5,326 nt of DNA, taken from an uncultured Oscillospiraceae bacterium (GTDB lineage: Bacteria; Bacillota_A; Clostridia; Oscillospirales; Oscillospiraceae). Below are positions 242-5,326 of the stretch, in pieces. The notes below the pieces were generated by a model. The model saw only the letters and a program-made list of their open reading frames with translations, ran no database searches and was not told the origin of the DNA. The DNA lies in the NCBI GenBank assembly GCA_944387745.1, contig CALXGD010000191.1, positions 1-5,326 on the forward strand, given 5' to 3'. Numbering within the stretch: the stretch's first letter is position 1; each line of letters opens with the position of its first letter. The translations under genes were made by a program, and so were the position numbers.

Positions 242-271
242 TTGACAATTCAGCGGAAAATGTGTTACGAT
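242..271 (+). promoter_or_regulatory. sigma-A promoter of the oadB operon
   Basis: The -35 box TTGACA (242-247) is a perfect match and is followed by an 18-nt spacer and the -10 box TACGAT (266-271). Transcription should begin around 277-281, right at the 5' edge of the conserved riboswitch segment. That placement supports both calls. It lies between the stop of the upstream gene (213) and the oadB start (481). Confidence 0.75.
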
Positions 272-278
272 GTCCAGG

Positions 279-378
279 CTAAGGGGAGTAGTCGGCACAG
301 CTTTCTTCTGTGCGGCACAGCCAACATCCTGGAGGAAGAAGCAGTTCCTCCTGGCTTTGCCTGAAATGACAAGACCTG
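279..378 (+). promoter_or_regulatory. yybP-ykoY-like (Mn2+-type) riboswitch aptamer
   Basis: The leader shows the hallmarks of the yybP-ykoY riboswitch in the right order. AAGGGGAGTAG (281-291) forms the first conserved loop. Hairpin GCACAG/CTGTGC follows (295-300 with 308-313). A helix GGCACAGCC/GGCTTTGCC (314-322 with 353-361, one mismatch) encloses a CAACATC internal loop and the hairpin GGAGGAA/TTCCTCC (331-337 with 345-351). The second conserved segment ACAAGACCT (369-377) then pairs its CCT back to AGG near 282-284. The GGCTTTG and CAAGACCT strings match the family as I recall it from the Lactococcus example. The usual fourth hairpin before CAAGACC seems absent or tiny, and the basal helix is short. 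Known members sense Mn2+ and usually turn genes on. The ligand here is inferred, and a Na+-sensing class would also suit the downstream gene. Confidence 0.72.
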
Positions 379-406
379 TGTTTTCCAAGGAAACGCAGGT
401 CTTTTT
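371..406 (+). terminator. Leader terminator overlapping the aptamer (expression platform)
   Basis: AAGACCTGTGTTTTCC (371-386) pairs with GGAAACGCAGGTCTT (389-403), with one G-T wobble and one bulged T. The stem runs into the tract TTTTT (402-406), as in an intrinsic terminator. Its first eight bases are the conserved 3' end of the riboswitch aptamer (CAAGACCT), so aptamer and terminator cannot form together. Ligand binding should therefore block termination, giving an ON switch for the downstream operon. It sits about 75 nt before the oadB start. Confidence 0.8.
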
Positions 407-1809: not shown

Positions 1810-1850
1810 AACAAGGCCTGGGACTGAAACAGTCCCAGGCCTTGTTTTTT
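1810..1850 (+). terminator. Strong intrinsic terminator of the oadB operon
   Basis: A perfect 17-bp stem (1810-1826 with 1830-1846) closes on an AAA loop. It contains the core GGCCTGGGACTG and ends in six T residues (1845-1850). It lies 24 nt after the mini-OadG stop. On the other strand the same hairpin is followed by a poorer tract (TTGTTCGCTTCTTC), so it may also stop the convergent minus-strand operon, whose last gene ends at 1890. Confidence 0.95.
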
Positions 1851-1889: not shown

Positions 1890-2378
1890 TCACTTCTCCC
1901 AGGGGGGCTTAGAGTTTTTCCTTCTGGTCCAGCTGGGGCGGGACTCCGGCTGTCGGACCTGCTCCGGCTCCTGAGGGGCGGCGTGGGGATTTGCTCTCCG
2001 CTGCGCCAGCAGCTGCTGCGCGGCCGCCCTGGCCACCTCGTCATACCCAGAGAGGAGGGAGGGGGCGGCGATCCGCTCTAGCTTCTTGTCGCTGTACTCC
2101 GCGAAATCCCGCAGGAAGGCCGCAAGCCGGTCCGATTGGAGGTGCTGGGTCCGCTCTGCCTTTGAGCGCTCCTTCTCCCACCAGGCCCGCCGCTCAGAGA
2201 GCCAGGAGTCGGCGGCGCAGAAGCGCAGGCAGCGGCACTGGTCACAGACGTACAAATCGCCGGGAATACACCTTTCCTCCACATCCTTACCCATCAGAAA
2301 TTGAATGTTTCCCGTGCGGAGAAACTCTGGTCCCAGGTACTGGAATGTTCCGCCGCAGCTGCATTTGATTTCCGCCAT
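1890..2378 (-). CDS. Zinc-ribbon-like cysteine-rich protein of unknown function
   Basis: This 162-aa protein starts at ATG 2378-2376, 7 nt behind a GGAG site (CTCC at 2384-2387 on the plus strand). The N-terminal third carries seven cysteines: C6 and C8 (CSCGG), C37, C45 and C48 (YVCDQC), C50 and C54. A CxC plus CxxC arrangement suggests one zinc-binding ribbon of the kind that holds nucleic acid or protein. Residues about 56-130 are highly charged and helical (WWEKERSKAERTQ, then AAAQQLLAQRR). The tail is Pro/Arg-rich and ends KPPWEK. There is no signal peptide or membrane span, so it should be cytoplasmic. It lies 30 nt behind ygiQ on the same strand without an obvious promoter of its own, so the two are probably co-transcribed. 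I do not recognise a named family. Start, frame and codon use support a real gene. Confidence 0.82.
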   Translation of the reverse strand: MAEIKCSCGGTFQYLGPEFLRTGNIQFLMGKDVEERCIPGDLYVCDQCRCLRFCAADSWLSERRAWWEKERSKAERTQHLQSDRLAAFLRDFAEYSDKKLERIAAPSLLSGYDEVARAAAQQLLAQRRANPHAAPQEPEQVRQPESRPSWTRRKNSKPPWEK

Positions 2379-2408
2379 GATATCTCCGTCCTTTCCGAAA
2401 CGATTGCA

Positions 2409-4403
2409 TTATCCCCGCTTCCTTCCCTTGGTGCCCTTCTTGGGGGCGGCGGGCTTGGCCCAGCCCGCCTTGCGCTTGGGTGGGCCGGAGCGGGCGGGGG
2501 CGCCGCCGCGTTTTTCCTCCCGGCCCTGGGCGCGGCTCGCTCCGCCCTTGGGGGCGGCGGGGCGCCTCTGAGCGGGGGTGGCTCCGGGGGCCTGCCCCTT
2601 GTCCGGCTTCACCAGGCAGTGCTTGCCGTAGCCAATTAAATCCTCCCGTCCGGTCTTATGGAGGGCCTCCAGCACCAGCTTCCGGTTCTGGGGCTTCCGC
2701 CACTGCATCAGAGCCCGCTGAAGGGCCTTGTCGTGGGGAGATTTTGGGACAAACACCGGCTCCATGGTCCTCGGATCAATTCCCGTGTACCACATACAGG
2801 TGGCCAGGGTGCCGGGGGTGGGATAAAAATCCTGGACCTGCTCGGGCATGTGTCCCTGCCGGTTCAGCCACTCCGCCAGCTGCACCGCGTCCTCCAGAGT
2901 GCAGCCGGGGTGGGAGGAGATGAGGTAGGGCACCAGGTACTGGTCCTTGCCGTAGCGCCGGTTGAGCTTAAAGTATTTCTCCCGGAATTTTTCATAGACC
3001 TCAATGTGGGGCTTGCCCATGTAGTCCAGGGTGTGGGCCACGCAGTGCTCTGGGGCCACCTTCAGCTGACCGGAGATGTGGTACTGTACCAGATCGGTGA
3101 AAAACTCCCCGCTGGGGTCCTTCATCAAATAGTCAAAGCGGATGCCTGAGCGGATGAATACCTTCTTCACGCCGGGCAGCTCCCGCAGCTTCCGCAGGAG
3201 CATCATGTAGTCGGTGTGGTCCGCGTCCAGGTTGGGGCAGGCCTCTGGGGCCAGACAGGCCCGGTTTTTGCACAGGCCGTGTTTCAGCTGCTTCTGGCAG
3301 GAGGGGTGGCGGAAGGTGGCGGAGGGCCCGCCCACGTCGTGGATATACCCCTTGAAGCCGGGGTGCTGGGTGAGCAGCTTGGCCTCCCGGAGGACGCTCT
3401 CGTGGCTGCGGGCGGAGATGACCCGCCCCTGGTGGAAGGCCAGGGAGCAGAAATTGCACGCCCCGAAGCAGCCCCGGTTGTGGGTGATGGAGAAGCGCAC
3501 CTCCTCGATGGCTGGGACGCCCCCCATGGAGTCATACATGGGGTGGGGCTCCCGCACATAGGGCAGCTCCGCCACCCGGTCCAGCTCCTGTGTGGTCAGA
3601 GGTAGGGCGGGGGGGTTGACCAAAAGAAAATCCCGGCCGTGCCTCTGTAGGATGGCCTTCCCTACAAAGGGGTCGTGCTCGTTATATTCGATCATATTGG
3701 CCTGGGCGTAGTCCTCCTTGCTGGCGGATACCTGCTCAAAAGAGGGCACCTCCACCTTGGGGTAGGCGCACACGCCGGGGTCCCGCACAGCCACGCAGGT
3801 GCCCCGCACGTCGGTAATTTCAGACACAGGCGTGCCCGAGGCCAGGCGGGAGACGATCTCCACCGAGGCCTCCTCCCCCATGCCGTAGGTGAGGATGTCC
3901 GCCTGGGCGTCAAAGAGGATGGACCGGCGCACCTTGTCCTCCCAGTAGTCGTAGTGGGCGAACCGGCGCAGGCTGGCCTCCAGGCCACCGATGATGACAG
4001 GGATGTCCCCAAACGCCTCCCGCACCCGGTTGGCGTACACCACCGTAGCGTGATCGGGGCGCAGCCCCGCCTTCCGGCCGGGGGAGTAGGCGTCGTCGTG
4101 GCGGCGCTGTTTGGCGGCGGTGTAGTGGGCCACCATGGAGTCCAAGTTGCCGGCGGAGATCATCACCGCCAGCCGGGGCCGGCCCAGGGCGGTGAAGGCC
4201 TCCGGAGAACGCCAGTCGGGCTGGGCCAGGACGGCCACCCGGTAGCCCTCCGCCTCCAGCACCCGGCCGATGATGGTGGGGCCGAAGGAGGGGTGGTCCA
4301 CATAGGCGTCCCCGGTGATAATCAGAATGTCGAAAAAGTCCCAGCCACGGCGGGCCATGTCCTCCCGGCTGACGGGGAGAAAGAGATCGCGGTCAAAGTT
4401 CAT
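2409..4403 (-). CDS. ygiQ: YgiQ family (UPF0313) radical SAM protein
   Basis: This 664-aa cytoplasmic protein belongs to the widespread YgiQ/UPF0313 radical SAM family, whose substrate is unknown. The N-terminal domain (about 1-290) opens DILIITGDAYVDHPSFG and includes the family strings AGNLDSMVAHYT and IPVIIGGLEASLRRFAHYDYW. The radical SAM core begins with CFGACNFC, a CxxxCxxC motif (Cys312, 316, 319) that should hold the [4Fe-4S] cluster cleaving SAM. A second cysteine group (C369, C378, C383, C389, in FRHPSCQ...CKNRACLAPEACPN) is a family feature and may bind another metal or cluster. The conserved YHISGQLKVAPEH and DFYPTPGT segments follow. The last 65 residues are Lys/Arg/Pro/Ala-rich and probably disordered. 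The start is supported by AGGAGGT 4 nt upstream. It leads an apparent two-gene operon with the zinc-ribbon protein. Confidence 0.96.
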   Translation of the reverse strand: MNFDRDLFLPVSREDMARRGWDFFDILIITGDAYVDHPSFGPTIIGRVLEAEGYRVAVLAQPDWRSPEAFTALGRPRLAVMISAGNLDSMVAHYTAAKQRRHDDAYSPGRKAGLRPDHATVVYANRVREAFGDIPVIIGGLEASLRRFAHYDYWEDKVRRSILFDAQADILTYGMGEEASVEIVSRLASGTPVSEITDVRGTCVAVRDPGVCAYPKVEVPSFEQVSASKEDYAQANMIEYNEHDPFVGKAILQRHGRDFLLVNPPALPLTTQELDRVAELPYVREPHPMYDSMGGVPAIEEVRFSITHNRGCFGACNFCSLAFHQGRVISARSHESVLREAKLLTQHPGFKGYIHDVGGPSATFRHPSCQKQLKHGLCKNRACLAPEACPNLDADHTDYMMLLRKLRELPGVKKVFIRSGIRFDYLMKDPSGEFFTDLVQYHISGQLKVAPEHCVAHTLDYMGKPHIEVYEKFREKYFKLNRRYGKDQYLVPYLISSHPGCTLEDAVQLAEWLNRQGHMPEQVQDFYPTPGTLATCMWYTGIDPRTMEPVFVPKSPHDKALQRALMQWRKPQNRKLVLEALHKTGREDLIGYGKHCLVKPDKGQAPGATPAQRRPAAPKGGASRAQGREEKRGGAPARSGPPKRKAGWAKPAAPKKGTKGRKRG

Positions 4404-4407
4404 AGGG

Positions 4408-4414
4408 ACCTCCT
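4408..4414 (-). promoter_or_regulatory. Ribosome binding site of ygiQ
   Basis: On the minus strand AGGAGGT ends 4 nt before the ATG at 4403. It fixes the start of the YgiQ protein, and there is no competing upstream start with a comparable site. Confidence 0.85.
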
Positions 4415-4426
4415 GGTATGTACATT

Positions 4427-4459
4427 CAGGCGGCTGACCGCCTGGGGAAATACTTCCCC
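4427..4459 (-). promoter_or_regulatory. Two adjacent inverted repeats in the ygiQ 5' leader
   Basis: CAGGCGG (4427-4433) and CCGCCTG (4438-4444) form a perfect 7-bp stem with a 4-nt loop. Next to it, GGGGAA (4444-4449) and TTCCCC (4454-4459) form a 6-bp stem with a 4-nt gap. The second repeat spans the predicted transcription start (about 4453-4455) just below the -10 box. It could be an operator for a dimeric repressor. Either repeat could instead be an RNA hairpin at the 5' end of the message, and there is no U-tract, so neither is a terminator. The function is not known. Confidence 0.5.
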
Positions 4460-4460
4460 T

Positions 4461-4488
4461 ATTATACCAGAGCCCGCCCGCCTGTCAA
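4461..4488 (-). promoter_or_regulatory. Near-consensus sigma-A promoter of ygiQ
   Basis: Read on the minus strand, TTGACA (4488-4483) and TATAAT (4466-4461) are both perfect matches to the consensus, separated by 16 nt. The start should fall near 4454, giving a leader of about 50 nt before the ygiQ ATG. Such a strong core promoter suggests high expression unless it is held by a repressor at the adjoining inverted repeat. Confidence 0.85.
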
Positions 4489-4500
4489 ACCCCGGGACAG

Positions 4501-4533
4501 AAAAAGACCTCGCCCCCTCTGCCGCCGCAGGGC
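4501..4533 (-). terminator. Possible weak terminator behind the small membrane protein gene
   Basis: On the minus strand GCCCTGC (4533-4527) can fold back on GCA...GGGC (down to 4512) with a GAGG bulge. A short spacer and five T residues (4505-4501) follow. The stem is imperfect and the spacing to the T tract is longer than usual. It is the only terminator-like structure between the permease unit and the ygiQ promoter. Confidence 0.3.
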
Positions 4534-4613
4534 ATCTCCCCCTTGACAGGGCGATTGCTGCGCATTTTGCAGCGGACGCTTTTCCCAAAATTCCCGCGGG
4601 CATGGTGGAAAAT

Positions 4614-4775
4614 TCACGGCTCCACCGCCCTGCCCCCCGCCAGCATGAGAGGGACGGACAGGGCCAGCAGGGCCCAGGCCGCTGGTCCGGCTGGCCGGAT
4701 GACCCCGGTGAAGGGGAGCAGGGCGGAGCACGCCGCCGCTCCCCGCCCCGCCCACAGGAGAAGCCGCCCTCTCAC
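4614..4775 (-). CDS. Small hydrophobic protein, probably a membrane protein
   Basis: This 53-codon frame starts at GTG 4775-4773, 2 nt after the TGA of the permease gene, and stops at TGA 4616-4614. The start is favoured by AAGGAG (4789-4784) 8 nt upstream, inside the permease 3' end, which implies translational coupling. The product begins VRGRLLLWAGRGAAAC and has two hydrophobic stretches, about residues 5-25 and 31-47 (AAWALLALSVPLMLAGG), separated by a Gly/Pro turn (IRPAGPA). This predicts a two-helix membrane protein. The codon choice is GC-rich like its neighbours. I do not recognise a family. It may be an accessory of the ABC exporter next to it, but that is inferred from position only. 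The frame also remains open upstream to 5021, where it merely shadows the permease. Confidence 0.58.
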   Translation of the reverse strand: MRGRLLLWAGRGAAACSALLPFTGVIRPAGPAAWALLALSVPLMLAGGRAVEP

Positions 4776-4777
4776 GG

Positions 4778-5326
4778 TCAAAACTCCTTCCGGTCCAGAA
4801 TGCGGCAGGAGAGCAGGAAGGAGACAGCCAGCCCCAGCAGCGTCACCAGGGGGAACAGACTGATCAGCCCCAGGGCGTTCCACTCCGGCAGCCGGTTCAA
4901 AAAGTCCAGGCTCAGGCCCAGGTCCTTCCCAAACCGCAGCAGCAGGAAGACGGCCACAAAGGGGGTGAACAGCACAGCGAGCAGATAGGGCCGGGCCCGC
5001 TCCGGCCCCAGCTTGTAGCACAGGGGGAGCAAAATGTCTACAATCAGCAGGCCCATCCCCAGGGAACCCAGCATGGCCCCCAGGTTTTCCGCCAGGGTGG
5101 CGTCCCCGATGTGCAGCAGGTCAATCAACACGGCGCACACACTGCTGAAGGCGAGCAGGGCCAGCAGGACCAGCAGGGTGAACAGGTATCTCGCCCCCAC
5201 AATGGTCCGGGGTTCGAGGGGGAAGGACCGGGCGAACCGGTCCCACTTGGCCGCCTCGTCCATGGAGAAGCAGGAGATGGGCAGCATCATAATGATGACG
5301 GTAGAAAATGTGATCACGAAGGTCAC
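4778..5326 (-). CDS. ABC-2 type transporter permease (5' part outside the window)
   Basis: The gene runs off the right edge. 182 residues plus the stop (TGA 4780-4778) are visible, and the first visible codon is a GTG that is most likely internal. The segment MDEAAKWDRFARSFPLEPRTIVGARYL (residues 22-48 of the fragment) is the hallmark of the ABC-2 permease family related to ABC2_membrane_5: an acidic D-E, K-W-D, then a P-x-x-R-x-I-V-x-x-x-Y stretch in the cytoplasmic loop after the second helix. Hydrophobic helices lie at about 1-20, 48-71, 83-104, 112-130 and 150-172, so roughly 30-40 N-terminal residues with the first helix are missing from a usual length of about 210-220 aa. Such permeases pair with an ATP-binding subunit, normally encoded just upstream, which would be beyond the window. 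The substrate is unknown. The small protein gene follows 2 nt after the stop. Confidence 0.88.
   Translation of the reverse strand: MTFVITFSTVIIMMLPISCFSMDEAAKWDRFARSFPLEPRTIVGARYLFTLLVLLALLAFSSVCAVLIDLLHIGDATLAENLGAMLGSLGMGLLIVDILLPLCYKLGPERARPYLLAVLFTPFVAVFLLLRFGKDLGLSLDFLNRLPEWNALGLISLFPLVTLLGLAVSFLLSCRILDRKEF
4784..4789 (-). promoter_or_regulatory. Ribosome binding site of the small hydrophobic protein
   Basis: AAGGAG on the minus strand lies inside the last codons of the permease gene, 8 nt before the GTG at 4775. It is the main evidence that the GTG, rather than an upstream codon in the same frame, is the start. Confidence 0.6.

Follow-up and report, generated by a model that had tools for sequence, protein, structure and literature searches.

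Targets of the Mn2+ riboswitches of the yybP-ykoY class (RF00080) include GDT1/UPF0016 proteins. MntP, YoaB and a P-type ATPase are named as further targets in the literature, and PMC9495176 recounts, second-hand, that the Mn2+/Ca2+ mgtA riboswitch of Streptococcus pneumoniae is a yybP-ykoY aptamer with a three-way junction. In the structures from Xanthomonas oryzae and Lactococcus lactis, an invariable adenosine contacts Mn2+ through its N7, and the contexts of this base are ACA(48)UACU and UCA(41)AUUC, respectively (PMC6754395). According to PMC6754395 and PMC11087558, Mn2+ stabilises helix P1.1 and the terminator is thereby prevented, so that the switch is ON with Mn2+; one review calls the class 'OFF', contrary to these two accounts. 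Some riboswitches of the Na+-I (DUF1646) family precede oxaloacetate decarboxylase genes (PMC9337991). On the protein side, OadB is a cation-binding, elevator-type protein, for which E40, D203, R304, N311, S382 and N412 (StOAD numbering) are given as essential residues in Salmonella (PMC7274780), and the C-terminal segment of OadD binds OadA (PMC7145394). No report of a link between an Mn2+ riboswitch and OadB was found in literature searches, the target tables of the 2015 primary and the pneumococcal papers being outside their scope.

The locus analysed here lies in a 5,326-nucleotide stretch (the window) from an uncultured Oscillospiraceae bacterium (contig CALXGD010000191.1), in which a leader RNA precedes a stand-alone (orphan) OadB-like gene and a gene for a very small OadG-like protein, mini-OadG (Table 1). 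A preliminary description, made from the letters of the window, had proposed a yybP-ykoY-like leader, set at a promoter and ahead of orphan OadB and mini-OadG. Both class and layout were borne out, and a terminator overlaps the leader. Its three motifs, GGGGAGTAG (283-291), GGCTTTG (353-359) and ACAAGACCT (369-377), stand at exactly these coordinates and are part of a conserved and covarying leader RNA, with a promoter-like site upstream and an OAD_beta gene (PF03977) downstream. From the position of the promoter, the RNA is expected to start at about 278, and TTGACA-type promoters were seen at the equivalent place before most of the other leaders inspected. Further downstream in the window (1893-5326, minus strand) lie genes for a 162-aa protein, a YgiQ-type radical SAM protein (TIGR03904) and an ABC-2 membrane protein, and no connection of these genes with the leader or oadB was seen.

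Table 1. Features of the leader RNA and of the two-gene unit (positions in the window)
Feature	Position	Strand	Basis and remarks
Sigma-70-like promoter	242..271	+	TTGACA 242-247, 18-base spacer, TACGAT 266-271; by eye
Aptamer, yybP-ykoY class without P4, three-way junction	275..376	+	R1 87.9 bits (window in training set); RF00080 16.0 bits
P1.1 switch helix, 5' strand	282..284	+	A282, G283, G284 with U377, C376, C375
L1 motif GGGGAGTA	283..290	+	GGGAGTA (284-290) shared by every distinct leader, whatever its target class; the way the model was built contributes to this
P1.2	291..294 with 367-370	+	RNAalifold consensus
P2 hairpin	295..313 (295-300 with 308-313)	+	5/7 model pairs changed on both sides
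P3	314..361 (314-317 with 358-361, 320-323 with 352-355)	+	7/9 model pairs changed on both sides
L3 CCAACATCCT	321..330	+	A326 (A52 in first A1 row) invariant in 32/32 rows of A1
Apical P3.2	331-337 with 345-351	+	Sequence reading and window fold
Intrinsic terminator	371..406	+	Arms 371-385 and 389-403, T run 402-406; window fold
Orphan OadB-like membrane protein, 382 aa	481..1629	+	PF03977 491 bits, E 2.3e-147; TIGR01109; Salmonella OadB 6iva E 2.2e-93
Mini-OadG, 46 aa	1645..1785	+	One hydrophobic segment, no C-terminal domain; NF040909 OadG_rel_small 19.9 bits, cut-off 25
Terminator-like hairpin closing the two-gene unit	1810..1850	+	Inverted repeat and T run by eye; hairpin aligned in sub-threshold Rfam matches

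Relatives of the locus were collected with an OadB protein scan of bacterial and archaeal genomes, and the best 80 of 95 loci were used. Thirty-four leaders, that of the window included, passed a motif filter (GGGGAGTAG plus a 3' GAN-AGAC motif), and 32 of these were aligned (alignment A1) after exclusion of the near-copies L003 and L007; in A1, the L1 motif, the 3' motif and the invariance of P1.2 are by construction, and P2, P3 and L3 were unselected. RNAalifold gave a consensus of 23 pairs, 12 of them with compensatory changes. The covariation score was 0.381 versus 0.189 for the shuffled alignments (no score as high in 500 shuffles), and the signal was lost when the pairs were shifted by 1 to 3 columns. 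It is located in P2 and P3; P1.2 is nearly unvarying, with three of its four pairs invariant, so that covariation neither supports nor contradicts this helix. The preliminary description had staked its proposal on covariation of the helices among homologous leaders, and that covariation is clear. The window sequence itself, at 270-412 (a stretch that includes the terminator), folds with a z-score of -3.83. The minimum-free-energy fold of the window alone is the terminator form, with 275-279 paired with GCCUG near 359-363 and neither P1.1 nor P1.2 present; the aptamer form rests on the alignment.

A model trained on the 32 rows of A1, that is, on oadB leaders only (R1), gave a match (E <= 1e-3) directly upstream of oadB in 39 of the 80 loci, of which 31 were training rows and eight were untrained (two of the eight, L003 and L007, being near-copies of a trained row); L019 and L024, which are without the 3' filter motif, also match R1. 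Five weaker matches were found at the same position (L033, L054, L070, L028 and L068; E 0.035 to 0.45) and three more leaders by eye (L022, L056 and L065), and in all eight GGGAGTAG is accompanied by a plausible L3 and by a terminator. The leader is thus present at 47 of the 78 loci that could be judged (8 of the 47 by eye), L030 and L050 having too little upstream DNA for the purpose. Among 13 leaderless loci, no other known RNA family reached its gathering score except one tRNA. Five leaderless orphan loci (L047, L048, L049, L051 and L053) still have, directly upstream of oadB, a promoter together with a GACTTTTGGC...GTCAGAAGTC type hairpin that resembles the terminators of L065, L068 and L070; these loci apparently represent a riboswitch with a lost aptamer.

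The search with RF00080 itself, which the preliminary description had recommended, was borderline: RF00080 was absent from the whole-window Rfam scan at E <= 10, and on the 261 bases around the leader it scored 16.0 bits (E 0.012), under the gathering cut-off of 45. The leader of the orthologue L004, the best oadB leader seen, scored 38.3 bits (E 1.1e-7), and two leaders of mntP homologues from genomes with an oadB relative scored 35.3 and 25.2 bits, all of them again below the cut-off. In control genomes, RF00080 matched in 5 of 14 and exceeded the cut-off in 2 of 14, and the cut-off alone is for that reason a poor test. The better-scoring Rfam names (among them SSRC10, Thr_leader and miRNA families) were rejected, as all were below their cut-offs and mainly aligned terminator hairpins. 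As a separate observation, RF00080 is insensitive in these bacteria, with 0/20 genomes over the cut-off and 4/20 at E <= 0.001, and R1 matches in 18 of the same 20. On 19 loci without a strict leader, RF00080 gave no match at E <= 0.05, and seven of those 19 (L022, L028, L033, L054, L056, L068 and L070) bear a leader by eye, so either RF00080 is insensitive to divergent leader forms or the by-eye calls are too generous.

The L3 context of the window, CCAACA(326)UCC, corresponds to the first of the two published forms, ACA(48)UACU, and its base 326 is invariant in A1; judged from the sequence, A326 corresponds to A48 of the Xanthomonas RNA, the adenosine that contacts Mn2+ (role after PMC6754395). 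Both published forms of L3 are represented before oadB. Of the 33 distinct oadB leaders in the 80-locus set, 31 have YCAACA and two have UAACA; YCAACA is also found in 45 of 45 mntP leaders, and in four of ten further distinct oadB leaders from the family sample described below (CGUCAR in five, another form in one). For P1.1, 159 leaders were taken, from which four without a clear motif and six duplicates were dropped. In the 149 distinct leaders, the pair 283/376 is AU in 87, GC in 44, GU in 17 and UG in 1, and the pair 282/377 is AU in 82, GC in 57 and GU in 6; for both pairs, no value as high was obtained in 500 shuffles, which do not preserve relatedness. Pairs outward of 282/377 are weaker (60-74% paired). 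The terminator 5' arm of the window includes the 3' strand of P1.1 (375-377), and the same overlap was found in 118 of the 149 leaders and not found in the other 31. Since the adenosine counterpart, P1.1 and the overlapping terminator are all present, the leader is by far most likely to be an Mn2+ ON switch, its direction being taken by analogy from studies in L. lactis and X. oryzae.

Compared with RF00080 as described, the window leader shares L1 GGGAGUA, the L3 adenosine counterpart, the layout of P1.1, P1.2, P2 and P3, and a terminator overlapping P1.1, and mntP, P-type ATPase and GDT1 genes are targets in the same lineages. It differs in its sub-cut-off Rfam score, in its target, a homologue of an oxaloacetate decarboxylase (OAD) beta subunit, and in having a three-way junction without P4. 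P4 and the four-way junction of the L. lactis and X. oryzae structures are absent from all 32 leaders of A1; because a three-way-junction member has been described in S. pneumoniae (PMC9495176), P4 was not taken as defining, the pneumococcal mgtA riboswitch differing from the present one in that its target is a P-type ATPase. On its sequence features, the window leader belongs to the yybP-ykoY (Mn2+) class, as a diverged member. That it is a riboswitch of this class with Mn2+ as its ligand is very highly probable; the class follows from sequence, structure and covariation, and the ligand is what we infer from them.

The genes behind the leader were surveyed with R1, which finds mntP leaders at scores of up to 69.4 bits, and the first gene behind each match was named by tblastn against seeds (six seeds named with Pfam, OadB by PF03977). 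In 300 genomes of one family, 125 matches were obtained in 107 genomes, a lower bound owing to the strict filters. The first genes were mntP (47), P-type cation ATPase (39), Na/Ca exchanger (14), oadB (11), TetR-family regulator (8), CitMHS-like permease (2), GDT1/UPF0016 (1) and unclassified (3). A second sample was drawn from the class of genome G017 (391 genomes) and yielded 54 matches in 50 of them (mntP 22, P-type ATPase 16, exchanger 6, oadB 3, TetR 1, unclassified 6), one match, in G086, being counted in both samples. The same L1 and L3 core is found in the leaders before mntP, P-type ATPases, Na/Ca exchangers and GDT1 of related genomes, so that, of the two options left in the preliminary description, a part for the OadB-like pair in metal-ion homeostasis is the better supported. 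In a set of 30 genomes chosen for the presence of oadB, 19 have an R1 match before oadB plus another before mntP (coordinates compared by eye); oadB belongs to the same regulon as mntP.

Several other genes stand behind the same leader. A TetR-family regulator is the first gene at L098, L105, L107, L114, L140, L148, L151 and L152 (8/125) and at L266 (1/54); the L151 protein has TetR_N and TetR_C_8 domains, and at L168 the leader is followed by mntP and then by a TetR gene. Four ABC-transporter ATP-binding proteins of the class-wide sample (L290, L299, L300 and L302) were named by reading the sequence. A target of the leader therefore need not itself transport Mn2+. The CitMHS/ArsB-like permeases were found at L121 and L199 (the latter named with Pfam), and it is possible that they are another new class of Mn2+ transporter.

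The OadB-like protein of the window shares with Salmonella OadB (PDB 6iva and 6iww) the family and the cation-site residues. The counterparts of E40, D203, N311, S382 and N412 are kept; unlike the Salmonella protein, it is stand-alone, has Ser as the counterpart of R304, is accompanied by mini-OadG in place of a full gamma subunit, and is preceded by an Mn2+-type riboswitch. For the comparison of residues, duplicates (L081, L085, L234 and L236-L239) and truncated sequences (L015, L030, L057 and L122) were omitted, and the canonical set consisted of 25 paralogues (L210-L233 and L235). E40, D203, S382 and N412 are present in 87/87 orphans, N311 in 61/87 and R304 in 7/87 (L018, L019, L021, L024, L025, L043 and L190, all of which bear the leader); the canonical paralogues have Arg (23/25) or Gln (2/25) at the R304 position. 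In total, 24 positions are differently conserved between the two groups; a concentration of these differences round the cation site was tested and was not significant (p 0.14 to 0.20).

In a quick tree of 111 rows, from which L050 was additionally omitted, the 25 canonical sequences were split from the 86 orphans by a branch with support of 100. The leader was seen in 56 of these 86 orphans (8 by eye) and not seen in 30, is found in each of the three deep divisions of the orphan clade, and requires at least nine changes on the tree. In the supported group that includes the window, all 40 rows have it (L022, L028 and L033 by eye).

The partner genes differ as well. A small ORF with a similar motif (search limited to <= 100 aa) follows 84 of the 87 orphan genes, with a median of 44 aa (range 37-81), so the partners are mostly shorter than the OadD/GcdD subunits of 9-10 kDa; NF040909, under the cut-off of which mini-OadG of the window falls, is the NCBI family 'OadG-related small transporter subunit'. 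No alpha or biotin-carrier gene was found in the window. Within flanks of up to ~3 kb, decarboxylase-type genes were found near 4/87 orphans versus 24/25 canonical paralogues, where part of the 24 are self-matches because the seeds came from canonical loci, and where L235 matched only a seed of non-decarboxylase type. At three leaderless orphan loci (L035, L041 and L075), carboxyltransferase-type and biotin-carrier-type genes lie 1.2 to 2.6 kb downstream, and these are possibly a form still tied to the decarboxylase. PF03977 was found in all 30 genomes searched, with at least two over-cut-off matches in 28 (part of these being fragments from short contigs); one of the copies is commonly found together with decarboxylase genes, and the other is the stand-alone form.

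We propose the following explanation. At low Mn2+, CCU (375-377) would enter the terminator hairpin (371-403), and transcription would stop before oadB. In excess Mn2+, L1 would dock on L3 around A326 and P1.1 (282-284 with 375-377) would be stabilised, in which case the terminator could not form and oadB and mini-oadG would be transcribed. The OadB-like protein, freed from the decarboxylase, would act as an elevator-type exporter of Mn2+ (or of divalent cations) driven by Na+ or H+, and mini-OadG would serve as a stabilising helix for it. The exporter reading is suggested because OadB is a cation-binding elevator protein, the decarboxylase partners and, in most orphans, an essential residue have been lost, and the RNA is the same as that of mntP. 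Several observations speak against the explanation: the terminator form of the window's own fold and its RF00080 score far under the cut-off, the 31 leaders in which no terminator overlap was found, R304 in seven leader-bearing orphans, the 30 orphans of the tree in which no leader was seen and the carboxyltransferase-type genes close to three of these, the non-significant concentration of differences at the cation site, the TetR and ABC ATPase genes behind the leader, and the PF02659 (MntP) gene in 28 of 30 genomes, by which a second exporter is not needed a priori. We consider the explanation as a whole, an Mn2+ ON riboswitch with an OadB-like Mn2+/divalent-cation exporter and mini-OadG, reasonably probable; export of divalent cations by the orphan OadB, for which the regulon is the evidence, is put forward somewhat more cautiously, and of all the steps the transport of Mn2+ is the one that goes furthest beyond the observations.

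The alternative that survives best, though an improbable one, is that the orphan OadB transports Na+ (or Na+ and H+) and not Mn2+, building up or relieving the ion gradient on which MntP, Na/Ca-type and other exporters run, Mn2+ control being indirect. It would be consistent with the retention of the Na+-site residues D203, S382 and N412 and with Na/Ca-type exchangers in the same regulon, and also with the finding of a PF02659 (MntP) gene in 28 of 30 genomes searched; against it, R304 and the decarboxylase partners, which energise Na+ pumping, are mostly gone, and metal pumps or exchangers are the commonest targets of the leader. The frequency of PF02659, together with the 19 genomes that have both leaders, also led us to reject OadB as a general replacement of MntP; in one genome, G106, the oadB leader is present and PF02659 gave no match.

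Less probable still, the aptamer would be a yybP-ykoY variant that binds a different divalent ion (for example, Ca2+, Cd2+ or Fe2+), and OadB would handle that ion. According to PMC7266159, some common yybP variants have probably switched ligand, and the pneumococcal mgtA aptamer also binds Ca2+ (PMC9495176); the L1 motif, the YCAACA L3 and the adenosine counterpart are nevertheless common to the mntP leaders, partly of the same genomes, which counts against this reading.

We regard it as quite unlikely that the orphan OadB still serves a decarboxylase as its beta subunit, with alpha and biotin-carrier subunits borrowed from genes elsewhere and with Mn2+ control reflecting the metal need of the carboxyltransferase. 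Genes from which subunits might be borrowed are widespread, PYC_OADA in 29/30 and Carboxyl_trans (acetyl-CoA carboxylase included) in 25/30 of the genomes searched, but they commonly lie beside the second, canonical OadB, the essential Arg is mostly lost, and mini-OadG, to judge from its length, is apparently mostly too short for the OadA-binding tail.

That the leader is a Na+ or Li+ riboswitch (the Na+ variant aptamer being the other option of the preliminary description), or no riboswitch, is largely refuted and barely credible, since, in spite of the oxaloacetate decarboxylase genes that follow some Na+-I riboswitches, the 261 bases around the leader gave no match at E <= 10 to a Na+ or Li+ family of the Rfam library, in which the Na+-I and Li+ families are presumably present, the leader agrees with RF00080 in fold and core, and it retains, in A326, the counterpart of the adenosine that contacts Mn2+.

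With the Mn2+ exporter as the favoured reading, the riboswitch serves as a clue to the ligand of a widespread protein subfamily that is named in databases after the sodium-pumping decarboxylase. The leader stands before stand-alone OadB relatives in many gut Clostridia, which makes the protein family a candidate for a new kind of manganese exporter. The evidence is about evenly balanced on the broader statement that, in anaerobic gut Clostridia, a whole OAD beta-subunit subfamily has parted from the biotin-dependent decarboxylases that pump Na+ and now forms, together with a reduced gamma subunit, a family of Mn2+ (divalent cation) exporters controlled by Mn2+ riboswitches. If it is true, manganese efflux would gain a new transporter family, a subunit of a primary pump would be seen to have lost its enzyme and turned into a secondary transporter, and many annotations of gut bacteria would be corrected.
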